Shown here piece by piece: positions 6,256 through 34,583 of a DNA stretch of 64,000 nt (its first letter is position 1; each line of letters begins with the position of its first letter). The position numbers were made by a program, and so were the translations under genes. The DNA is from Stagnimonas aquatica (GTDB taxonomy: Bacteria; Pseudomonadota; Gammaproteobacteria; Nevskiales; Nevskiaceae): NCBI RefSeq assembly GCF_003730135.1, contig NZ_RJVO01000007.1, positions 124,001 through 188,000 of the forward strand, given 5' to 3'. The notes under the pieces are model-generated. The model was not told the origin of the DNA and made no database searches. It worked only from the letters and a program-made list of their open reading frames with translations.

Positions 6256-7563
6256 TCAGGCGTAGTGGTCGAACAGACCCCGCAGGCGTCGCGGTGGTGG
6301 TAGCGACGGCGCCTCAATCCGGTCCGGCTCCGCAGAACCGGTGCCCCGGTCGGTCTGCCAGGCCGGTGGCGCGTAGCCGCGCGATTGCGGGTCCTGGCTG
6401 AACACGCTGGCCTGGGACAGGCTCAGGCCGCTGTCGCCGAGCAGTTCGCGCAGGCGCGGCAGCGCCTCGCTCAGCAGCTCGCGGGTCGTCGCCTGCGCCG
6501 CGCCCATGTGCACCTGCACACGGCCATCGTGCACCCGCACCTGCAGATCAATGGCGCCAAGATCGTCCGGGGCCAGGGCGATGCGTGCCTCCTGGACTTC
6601 ACGGCCCAGATGCCAGCTGATCTGGCTAGAGAGCTGCTCCGGCCAGTCGCTGCGGGCGGTGTTCACCACCGGCGTGGGCATTGGCGCCGACGCCGGCTCC
6701 AGCCTTGGCACCGCCGCGCCGCCGGCGCTGGTCACCGGCAAGGCGAACGGCAGCTCGCCAGCGCCTTGATTGCCGCTCACCGGCGACGCCGCCTCCGCCG
6801 GGACCACCGCCCGGCCGCCCTCCACCACCGCGCCCAGTGTCTGGTCGGCCGGCTGGGTCGCTGCTCCGGGCAGCGCGGTGCCGGCGCCGACGGCGGGGAT
6901 CGCGGACTCTGCGCCCGCTGGCGCCAGTGGGGACGCTGCCAGACCCTGCAAGGCGTCCCTGGCCGCGACCGCCGGCCCCGGCGTCGGGGTGGGGATCGGT
7001 GGCCTAGCCCAGGGACTATGAATCTGTAGCAGCAGAGTGCTGGCGGGATCGTTGGTCACTGGTGCCTGGCTGCCCGCCTCCGGCTTACCAGCCGTCGCCG
7101 GCGCTGGCAGCGTGGCAGACGGCGGCACCGGCTCGCCAGCGGCGGGCTCGGTGGCCTCGCCGGCACGCAGCGCCATCGGCGTCGGCGCCCGGCAGGCGGT
7201 CTTGCCCACCAGAGGCCGTGGTCGAGCATCGGCGGCGGCCGCTCCAGGCTCGGATGCGGAAGCGGGATCCGCTGGGGCCGCCGGGTCGGCGCCCGGTGGC
7301 TCCGGCGGCGCGGCGGGGGCAAATGGCATCGTGCCGCTGGCCGTGGTCGGCGCCTCGGAGGGAGCGGGAGCGGCGGAGGGAGCGGGAGCGGCGGAGGCAG
7401 AAGTAGCAGCGGCCGGGCCTGCGGCGGGCGGTGCGGCAGCGGCACCCTGACCGGCAAGCAGACTGGCGAAGCCCGGCCCTGGCGGCGCGGCGGTCGCGGT
7501 AACCGCCTCGCCGGACGAAAGCTTGGGAGCGGCGCCCGGCGCGGCGGCGGTCGCCGCGATCAT
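6256..7563 (-). CDS. fliK: Flagellar hook-length control protein FliK
   Basis: This 435-residue protein is the molecular ruler that sets hook length and switches export specificity from hook to filament. The first 300 residues are Ala/Pro-rich and of low complexity, as usual for FliK. The C-terminal Flg_hook domain (about 310-405) is conserved, with L-S-S-Q-I-S-W-H-L, A-R-I-A-L-x-P-D-D-L-G and V-R-V-H-D-G-R-V-Q-V motifs. It is the last gene of the fliEFGHIJK operon. Its ATG overlaps the fliJ stop (ATGA), indicating coupled translation. The N-terminal part is too variable to recognise on its own; the call rests on the C-terminal domain and operon position. Confidence 0.92.
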   Translation of the reverse strand: MIAATAAAPGAAPKLSSGEAVTATAAPPGPGFASLLAGQGAAAAPPAAGPAAATSASAAPAPSAAPAPSEAPTTASGTMPFAPAAPPEPPGADPAAPADPASASEPGAAAADARPRPLVGKTACRAPTPMALRAGEATEPAAGEPVPPSATLPAPATAGKPEAGSQAPVTNDPASTLLLQIHSPWARPPIPTPTPGPAVAARDALQGLAASPLAPAGAESAIPAVGAGTALPGAATQPADQTLGAVVEGGRAVVPAEAASPVSGNQGAGELPFALPVTSAGGAAVPRLEPASAPMPTPVVNTARSDWPEQLSSQISWHLGREVQEARIALAPDDLGAIDLQVRVHDGRVQVHMGAAQATTRELLSEALPRLRELLGDSGLSLSQASVFSQDPQSRGYAPPAWQTDRGTGSAEPDRIEAPSLPPPRRLRGLFDHYA

Positions 7564-24901: not shown

Positions 24902-24998
24902 GTTTGGCGCCGTCGGCGCATTGATATTGGGTCTCCCCCACGTCGCCGGCTACGCCAGCAACGTCGCCCCCTCGCCGGGGGCAAAAAGAAAGCCGCGA

Positions 24999-25055
24999 GG
25001 GAGTGCCTCGAATGGCACTCCCGCCCGTTTCGCGGGCAGGCATGGATGCCTGCCC
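24999..25055 (-). other. Two hairpins in the purA 3' region
   Basis: The roughly 205-bp stretch between the tRNA-Leu terminator and purA has no convincing gene. It holds two palindromes: GGGCAGGCAT/ATGCCTGCCC at 25034-25055, and GGGAGTGCC/GGCACTCCC at 24999-25022. On the minus strand the second is followed within about 10 bases by a CTTTCTTTTT tract, so it probably terminates purA transcription. Confidence 0.55.
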
Positions 25056-25107
25056 AGGGGCCAGATCAGTGGTTTGAGGTCTCGCCAGGGATGGCAACTA
25101 GGCGGCC

Positions 25108-32453: not shown

Positions 32454-34268
32454 CTAGCGCCCCCGCAGGAACAGCCGGTCCAGCTCGGCCAGCTCCACCT
32501 GCACCCAGGTCGGACGGCCGTGGTTGCACTGGCCGGCCAGCTCGGTCTGCTCCATGTCGCGCAGCAGCGCATTCATCTCGCTCAGGCTCATCACCCGGTT
32601 GGCCTTGATCGCCGCCTTGCAGGCCATTTCCGCCAGCACCCGGTGCTGAGCATCCAGCACCTCGCCGAGATGGGCGTGCGAGCCGCTGTCGCTGCTGCGG
32701 CCCAGCACCTGGCGCAGCAAGTCCACCACCGCCTCGCTCGGCAGCAGCGCCGGCGTGGCACGCACCAGTAGTTGGCCAGGGCCGCTGCGGTCCACTTGCA
32801 GGCCGGCGGCCAGCAGGGTCGCGGACTGGGTTTCGGCGGCTTCGGCCTCGTCTTCCGGGAGGTTCACCAGCACCGGGGCCAGCAGCGCCTGCGAGGGCAC
32901 TCCACCCTCGGCCAGCTCGCGCTTGTAGCGCTCGTAGAGCACCCGCTCGTGGGCGGCGTGCATATCGACGACGATCAGGCCGCGCGCGTTCTGGGCCAGG
33001 ATGAAGATGCCGTGCAGCTGCGCCACCGCGTAGCCCAGCGGGTGCTCCACCGGCGAGGTGGCGCCGGGCGGCGCCGGCACCGCAGCCCGGCTGACCTCGG
33101 CCAGGCCGGCCCAGGTCGGCGCGCTGGCCGCCGGCGCGGCGAAGTAACGACCGGGCGGCTCGCCCAGACGAGGCGCGGTGCTCAGCGGCAGCGCATAGGG
33201 CTGCGGCTCGCGCGCCGGCTCGGCGGCACTGCCGAAACCGACGCCGTGATGGTGCTCGGGCTCTGGCCGCAGCTCGCGCAGCCAGCGGTGCACCAGGCCG
33301 AACAGGAAGTCGTGCACCCGCGCCGCCTCGCGGAAACGCACCTCGGTCTTCTGCGGATGCACGTTCACGTCCACCGCCGCCGGGTCCAGGGTCAGCGCCA
33401 ACACGAACGCCGGGTGGCGGGTACTGTGCAGGGCGTCGGCATAGGCGCGCCGCAGGGCGGCACCGAGCAGACGATCACGCACGCCGCGACCGTTGACGGT
33501 GAGGAACTGCAAGTCCGGCTGCGCCCGCGAGAAGCTGGGCAGGGCGATCCAGCCGGCCAAGCGCAGACCGCCGAGTTCGGCCTCGCGGTAGATGGCATTG
33601 GCGAGGAACTCCGCGCCGCAGACCGCCGCCAGCCGCCGCTCGTTGGCGGCCGCGTCCTCGGCAGGCTCCACATCCAGCAGCCGGCGGCCGTCGTGGCTGA
33701 GCGCAAAGGCCACGTCCGGCCGCGCCAAGGCCAGGCGCCGCAGCGCGGTTTCGACATGGCGCGCCTCGGTGCCCGGGCTCTTCATGAACTTCCGCCGCGC
33801 CGGGGTGCTGAAGAACAGGTCCAGCACTTCCACGGCCGTGCCCTGCGCCTGCGCCGCCGGCACCGGTTCGGCGCTGGCGAGACCACCCTCGCCGCCCAGA
33901 CGCCAGCCGTGTGGCTCGACCGCCGTGCGCGAACTCAAGCTCAGGCGCGATACCGCCAGGATGCTCGCCAGGGCCTCACCACGGAAACCCAGACTGGCGA
34001 CCCGCTCCAGGTCGTCGAGGCTGGCGATCTTGCTGGTGGCATGGCGCGCCAGCGCCAGCGGCAATTCCTCGCGCGGGATGCCGCGCCCGTCATCGCGCAC
34101 CAGAATGCGCCGCAGCCCGCCCTGCTCCAGCTCCACCACCACCCGCCGGGCACCGGCATCGAGGGCGTTCTCGACCAGTTCCTTGACCACCGCCGCCGGG
34201 CGCTCAACAACCTCGCCCGCCTTGATCTGGTTGATCAGGACTTCCGGCAACTGTTTGATCGTTGTCAT
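32454..34268 (-). CDS. mutL: DNA mismatch repair protein MutL
   Basis: MutL links MutS mismatch recognition to strand incision. The 604-residue protein has a GHKL ATPase N-terminus ([11 protein letters not shown]-x-[12 protein letters not shown]) and a C-terminal dimer domain. The endonuclease motif D-M-H-A-x2-E-x4-E is present ([12 protein letters not shown]), so this MutL probably nicks DNA itself. The start M-T-T-I-K-Q-L-P replaces the usual M-P-I-x-x-L-P. The first 18 codons and upstream DNA belong to a 125-bp tandem repeat. Two leader ORFs end immediately before the ATG. Confidence 0.97.
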
Positions 34269-34487
34269 CTTTACCGAGCCCAGCATTGGGCGAGGTCGAA
34301 ACGCCCCTGATCATTGCCGTGCAGGCCAGCCTGCACAGGGCCCGCCTTGATCTGGTTGATCAGGACTTCCGGCAACTGCTTGATCGTGGTCATCTTTACC
34401 GAGCCCAGCATTGGGCGAGGTCGAAACGCCCTTGATCATTGCCGTGCAGGCCAGCCTGCACGGGGCCCGCCTTGATCTGGTTGATCA
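34215..34487 (-). repeat. 125-bp tandem repeat over the mutL initiation region
   Basis: Two full 125-bp units (34215-34339 and 34340-34464) and the first 23 bp of a third (34465-34487) are almost identical. On the minus strand each unit holds a GTGCAGGC/GCCTGCAC hairpin, then a conserved segment ending CGGTAAAG, then ATG and 18 codons encoding the MutL N-terminus. Unit 1 contains the real mutL start. Beyond 34487 the third copy differs in DNA but keeps the MutL peptide. This and the amiC terminator fill the 315 bp between mutL and amiC. Confidence 0.92.
34271..34393 (-). pseudogene. Leader ORF: truncated second copy of mutL start
   Basis: This 40-codon ORF has the same first 18 residues as mutL ([18 protein letters not shown]). 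It then runs through the repeat as P-V-Q-A-G-L-H-G-N-D... and ends at TAA just 2 bases before the mutL ATG. It cannot be a functional MutL. It could act as a leader peptide coupling ribosomes into mutL. Confidence 0.6.
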
Positions 34488-34515
34488 ATACCTCGGGCAG
34501 CAACTGGATCGGCAT
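34396..34515 (-). pseudogene. Leader ORF: outermost copy of mutL start with canonical N-terminus
   Basis: This 39-codon ORF begins [17 protein letters not shown], which is closer to the common MutL start (M-P-I-Q-V-L-P in E. coli) than the working gene is. It then enters the repeat and stops at TAA 2 bases before the next ATG. Five consecutive codons (L-P-E-V-L) differ from the inner copies, all synonymously. It looks like the original mutL start, severed from its gene. Confidence 0.6.
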
Positions 34516-34531: not shown

Positions 34532-34563
34532 AAAAAACGGCGCGCAGGATAACCCGCGCGCCG
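34532..34563 (-). terminator. Rho-independent terminator of amiC
   Basis: On the minus strand a CGGCGCGC/GCGCGCCG stem (34538-34545 and 34556-34563) with a 10-base loop is followed by six T residues, 20 bp after the amiC stop. It separates amiC from mutL, which are normally co-transcribed. Confidence 0.88.
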
Positions 34564-34583
34564 CGTTCAGCCCGGTTTCGCGA

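Follow-up and report, generated by a model that had tools for sequence, protein, structure and literature searches.

In Streptococcus pyogenes, the phage-like chromosomal islands known as SpyCI, which carry an integrase, occupy the 5' end of mutL and are able to excise and re-enter (PMC3430984, PMC4689407). In Salmonella, mutL holds 6-bp repeats within its coding sequence (PMC2955026). REP/BIME and other non-autonomous small mobile sequences are short, hairpin-rich, dispersed and often tandem (PMC3733652, PMC2229807), and coupling of termination to reinitiation requires overlaps or very short gaps (PMC10666635, PMC6728339).

We describe a mutL locus, located in a 64-kb stretch of DNA that was analysed as a whole (hereafter the window), that shares features with these systems. 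Like SpyCI, its insert would have entered at the mutL 5' end, and mutL expression would then depend on what the insert brought; in contrast to SpyCI, there is only a 71-bp hairpin insert without a recombinase, and mutL is rebuilt with a start of its own. Direct repeats are associated with mutL here as in the Salmonella switch, but those of Salmonella lie inside the coding sequence and alter the protein, whereas those in the window lie upstream and cannot inactivate mutL. The locus also resembles coupled gene pairs, in which an upstream stop overlaps the next start (ATGA) or lies 2-3 nt from it (PMC6728339, PMC10666635), although the upstream ORF here is not a gene but the severed start of mutL itself.

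We consider it probable that the array is an insertion scar that mutL has absorbed, in which a hairpin-bearing insert severed the start, a rebuilt copy stands behind it, and the leader is coupled to mutL. A short insert of this kind would have interrupted native mutL behind codon 17 (following NQIKAG), so that the original start was severed and a second copy of the mutL 5' end lay behind the insert, its new start (M-[S/T]-x-I) opening with ATGA. Unequal exchange between the resulting direct repeats could then have added one further unit. The severed native start, still placed after the amiC terminator, would be read as a leader ORF, and ribosomes finishing this leader would most likely reinitiate on mutL, because the leader stop abuts the new start. 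Such a route would be repeatable, letting small inserts interrupt conserved genes within their first codons while the genes survive. It would also provide a natural test of termination-reinitiation, as the number of severed starts preceding this one gene varies among many species (0, 1, 2 or 3).

Three successive mutL starts lie on the minus strand between 34515 and 34215, with ATG codons at 34515, 34393 and 34268 (Table 1). Tandem Repeats Finder places the array at 34215-34487 (period 125, 2.2 copies, 97% match, score 518) and found no other long-period array within the window. An earlier note on this DNA had described two exact 125-bp units; the two units are there, but 'exact' needs correcting because they differ at four positions, each at the third base of a codon and synonymous in the frame used. 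Its remaining description holds, including the three starts, the leaders of 39 and 40 codons that both terminate as TAA-AG-ATG, and the five consecutive synonymous codon changes (L-P-E-V-L) between outer and inner copies. All three start copies end in the same 23 bases, TGATCAACCAGATCAAGGCGGGC, and this core forms a direct repeat of 5' mutL target sequence at both ends of the insert. Between the start copies, the 71 bp contain no ORF besides the leaders. The MutL of the window has no internal stops and is alignable to that of 41/41 relatives; an alternative in-frame ATG is found at 34286 (MLGSVKMTT...).

Table 1. Coordinates of features at the mutL locus, and of a dispersed repeat copy, in the window
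Feature	Position	Strand	Remarks
Intrinsic terminator of upstream amiC-like gene	34537..34564	-	12-pair stem with T tail; G003 shares this context
Putative leader ORF 1: apparent severed ancestral mutL start reading through insert	34396..34515	-	39 codons; TAA 2 nt before next ATG; nearest to single-copy G003
Invariant 23-bp core TGATCAACCAGATCAAGGCGGGC, copy 1	34465..34487	-	codons L-I-N-Q-I-K-A-G
Invariant core, copies 2 and 3	34340-34362 and 34215-34237	-	
Insert 1	34394..34464	-	71 bp; single locus in genome; no homology to native region upstream of outer copy
Hairpin CCGTGCAGGCTGGCCTGCACGG within insert 1	34442-34463	-	directly after core
Putative leader ORF 2: start MTTIKQ plus insert 2	34271..34393	-	40 codons; TAA 2 nt before mutL ATG
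Insert 2	34269..34339	-	71 bp; 2 synonymous third-position differences from insert 1
mutL proper, from MTTIKQ	32454..34268	-	604 codons; intact
Copy of repeat E, hairpins 1-3	24997..25101	+	GGTGAG foot not preserved

Relatives indicate the origin of the outer start. Three genomes of the same genus (G001, G002 and G003) have a single mutL start each, and that of G003, MPIQFLPEVL, directly follows the amiC terminator, just beyond which the outermost start of the window also sits. Over 45 bases, the outer copy of the window is nearest to G003 (6 differences), and the inner copy shows 9 differences from both the outer copy and G003. The alignment of 5' regions that the earlier note had recommended thus supports its view of the outermost copy as the severed ancestral start, both by position and by sequence, with the inner end having its own history. 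The inner copy is identical to that of G004, a sister species whose MutL is 95% identical to that of the window. This distinct and shared inner end fits a 5' end drawn from a separate mutL lineage, as had been claimed, although the inner end may instead have diverged after duplication.

The sister species G004 also carries the same 71-bp insert, without indels and at the same site, between its outer and inner mutL starts. Thus, the array is older than the species and most unlikely to be an assembly error. Both G004 contigs end inside the repeat, which suggests that more than one unit is present there as well. Although decayed (MSNPVLPEVLVKPLAA), the outermost start of G004 remains joined in frame with the next copy, and the resulting leader ORF ends as ATGA on the mutL start.

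Severed mutL starts recur in 11 of 58 Nevskiaceae genomes, representing five genera (G004, G046, G049, G050, G053, G059, G061, G014, G068, G024 and G000, the genome of the window), with four copies of the start in G046. This survey combined the pattern L[VI]NQI[AK]AG with follow-up reading of the sequence; the pattern alone gave 9 of 53 genomes, and reading added the other two. The gene is severed at the same codons, NQI[A/K]AG, but the inserts are unrelated between genera. They are always 71-197 bp long and contain hairpins, and severed genes are present only patchily within genera. No severed mutL start was found in 27 genomes from other families of the order. Across 84,980 GTDB species, searched with records near the window left out, an exact two-copy pattern with a period of 121-181 occurred only in Nevskiaceae, six Aeromonas species and one Holophagaceae genome. 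The Aeromonas species (L122, L124, L126, L128, L130, L131) have an old duplication in common, in which the amiC end and mutL start are repeated in tandem; the Nevskiaceae inserts, in contrast, are not copies of resident upstream sequence. In the Holophagaceae genome (L127, about 7073-7236), the mutL start was severed independently and a hairpin insert is present.

The same layout occurs in mtnC, a methionine-salvage gene without effect on mutation. Cut after the codons TDIEG, the mtnC start was severed in 10 of 51 genomes, which belong to five genera (G000, G046, G061, G014, G064, G067, G058, G012, G042, G022), and the copies in severed cases are separated by a dispersed repeat that we term E, or by a variant of it. 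In G000, where E is present at mtnC, the gene is severed at C1:348548-348709 (L231) and rebuilt downstream, and in G046, a perfect 39-bp target duplication flanks E. The control gene dnaK was severed in none of 56 genomes (Fisher p about 5e-4, where mutL entered the test as 10/53 and a similar result is expected with 9/53), and mutL and mtnC did not differ in the frequency of severed starts. The mtnC result refutes mutL as the sole target, and the equal frequency of the event in the two genes argues against an explanation specific to mismatch repair.

Relative to the mutL start, leader stops fall between -6 and +1 in g1, Nevskia, Panacagrimonas, the Holophagaceae genome and five of the six Aeromonas species. 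In G004, Nevskia and Panacagrimonas, the TGA of the start ATGA serves as this stop. A gap of 2 nt separates the stop from the following start in G000 and the Holophagaceae genome, and one of 3 nt in the five Aeromonas species. Inner starts in g1, Nevskia and Panacagrimonas are of the type M-[S/T]-x-I, begun by ATGA. Shuffled inserts with start and length fixed would couple in 28-66% of cases in these three groups, so each Nevskiaceae case is weak alone and the argument rests on repetition; only 5% of shuffles would couple in Holophagaceae, and 3% in Aeromonas. The leader has stayed open in both G000 and G004 although its sequence has changed. Leaders in G024 and the g11 genomes are not coupled to mutL. 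Candidate promoter-like hexamers were noticed by eye just before the inner start in G024 and g11.

Reinitiation into mutL, which the earlier note had suggested, is thus supported by comparison only, in that several independent lineages have a severed leader whose end lies at the real start. We infer that the leader ORF is translated and that coupling would drive mutL expression. The severed leader would probably feed ribosomes into mutL by termination-reinitiation, rather than switching repair.

Selection could have kept the hairpins and leaders as a regulatory device that sets MutL dosage, for example a low MutL level with a raised mutation rate. We find this doubtful, as its presence is patchy within genera, mtnC is severed equally often and the g11 and G024 arrays lack coupling, even though recurrence in mutL, the open leader in both G000 and G004 and the purely synonymous differences between units would agree with it. 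A contingency switch, in which changes in repeat number turn mismatch repair on or off as with the 6-bp repeats of Salmonella mutL, is most unlikely. Direct repeats that can recombine are present, and repeat-based switches of mismatch repair are known (PMC2955026), but the repeats in the window lie wholly upstream of mutL, where gain or loss of a 125-bp unit changes only the number of leaders and not the mutL frame or protein. The tuning or switching of repair proposed in the earlier note is therefore unsupported, because every recombinant between units leaves a complete mutL and because mtnC undergoes the same event.

It is also unlikely that a larger site-specific element integrated at NQIKAG with a mutL 5' end of its own and was later deleted to 71 bp. 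Such an attachment-site scar would account for the identity of the core in all copies and for an inner 5' end that is distinct from the native one and common to two species, and islands in mutL have precedent (PMC3430984). However, there are no integrase or phage-like genes in the 71 bp between the copies of the window and no integrase or cargo was seen beside the arrays of relatives examined, the inserts keep to the same short, hairpin-bearing form, and a dispersed small repeat makes the same layout at mtnC. A plain tandem duplication of resident upstream sequence and mutL start, without any insert, is what is seen in Aeromonas, where the unit is the amiC end plus mutL start. For the window it is very unlikely, and is contradicted unless the original upstream region was later replaced, as the G000 insert does not resemble the sequence that precedes the outer copy; the G024 and Nevskia inserts are likewise unlike their upstream regions. 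An assembly artefact is hardly credible: tandem repeats are prone to misassembly and the G004 contigs break here, but the units differ at four sites and the same insert is found independently in G004.

If mutL did absorb a small hairpin-bearing insert, we infer that the insert in the window arrived by the same route as E, though its sequence is not that of E. The feet of E (GGTGAG - stem - CGAACGC) and its KGGA-loop hairpin are absent from this insert, and neither a whole-genome search nor 464 kb of G000 sequence yielded dispersed copies of it. A GTAG- or CGTC-type foot on a short palindrome is also absent, and the insert is found at a single locus rather than in many copies. It shares the layout of E, with a strong hairpin, CCGTGCAGGCTGGCCTGCACGG, directly after the core, followed by a new start with one extra codon. 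As a whole, the 71-base insert folds only slightly better than shuffles (z -1.7). It may be a diverged E, another repeat, or the remnant of a larger element.

E consists of a GGTGAG foot, a stem, a CGAACGC foot and a second stem with a KGGA loop, with a third hairpin in many copies, and it duplicates 19-55 bp of its target. Among 61 first stems, the six outer pairs are 90% complementary, compared with 43% for shuffled partners, and 46 of the 61 have different outer 6-mers. There are 8 copies with exact feet in G000 (C1:60834, 94738, 253132, 348630; C2:157621; C5:183196, 219390; C9:30365) and 26 in G024, and many copies supply, through the TGA of GGTGAG, the stop codon of the gene before them. 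Within mutL inserts, E is present in the g11 genomes, whereas the feet alone are present in Nevskia and Panacagrimonas. E resembles REP/BIME in being short, hairpin-rich, dispersed and often tandem, but differs in its conserved feet, in stems that change freely while staying paired, in its target duplications and in its occurrence in genomes without Y1 transposase; the insert of the window differs also in occurring once in its genome. Y1_Tnp matches number two in G000 and none in G061, G024 and G067, yet G061 and G024 are rich in E, which speaks against a RAYT-driven REP as its origin. A known RNA family was discarded as the identity of the mutL region or of E, since neither had an Rfam match near any gathering score.

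We tentatively suggest that Nevskiaceae might carry an undescribed structured mobile repeat, which would insert after GG in short conserved coding motifs, duplicate 19-55 bp of upstream target, rebuild the start and leave a leader ORF, the insert of the window being a diverged or sister form. Proposed target sites are mtnC TDIEG, gph FDWDG, mutL NQIAAG, a tRNA gene and gene stop codons. If this is true, duplications that vary in length and stems that covary freely would point to insertion by an RNA-copied (retroposon-like) or guide-paired mechanism for this repeat class. With its strong stem covariation, target duplication, gene-end preference and absence from Rfam, the E family would be a new bacterial mobile or structured element. 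The most interesting lead from this locus is, in our view, the general one of small structured repeats invading conserved gene starts, which are then rebuilt.

Further observations concern E in other settings. Genomes from two further gammaproteobacterial families (G103, G165) contain E in its full two-hairpin form. E cuts a gph-like start (FDWDG) in G046 (L199) and the 5' end of a putative tRNA gene in G024 (L212), and in both cases a rebuilt copy follows. Upstream of mutL in G061 and G068 (L053, L055), the stretch from E to the inner start contains the mutL junction in inverted form, exact over 22 bp (GCGCTCGACGACTTCGCCGGCG). We rejected this inverted copy as a shared feature of the inserts, as it is exact over 22 bp only in the g11 genomes and weak elsewhere, and its apparent counterpart in Nevskia E units is better read as a direct GCCGGCGA motif. 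At the 3' end of mutL in G068 (L119), E-like tandem units with a period of 101 follow the stop codon, and their first stem pairs with the last mutL codons. A survey of tandem repeats that covered 400 kb each of G000 and G046, besides the window, included an array in G000 at C1:247100-247571 (period 137, 3.4 copies), which contains a glyQ-like 3' end and a hairpin.
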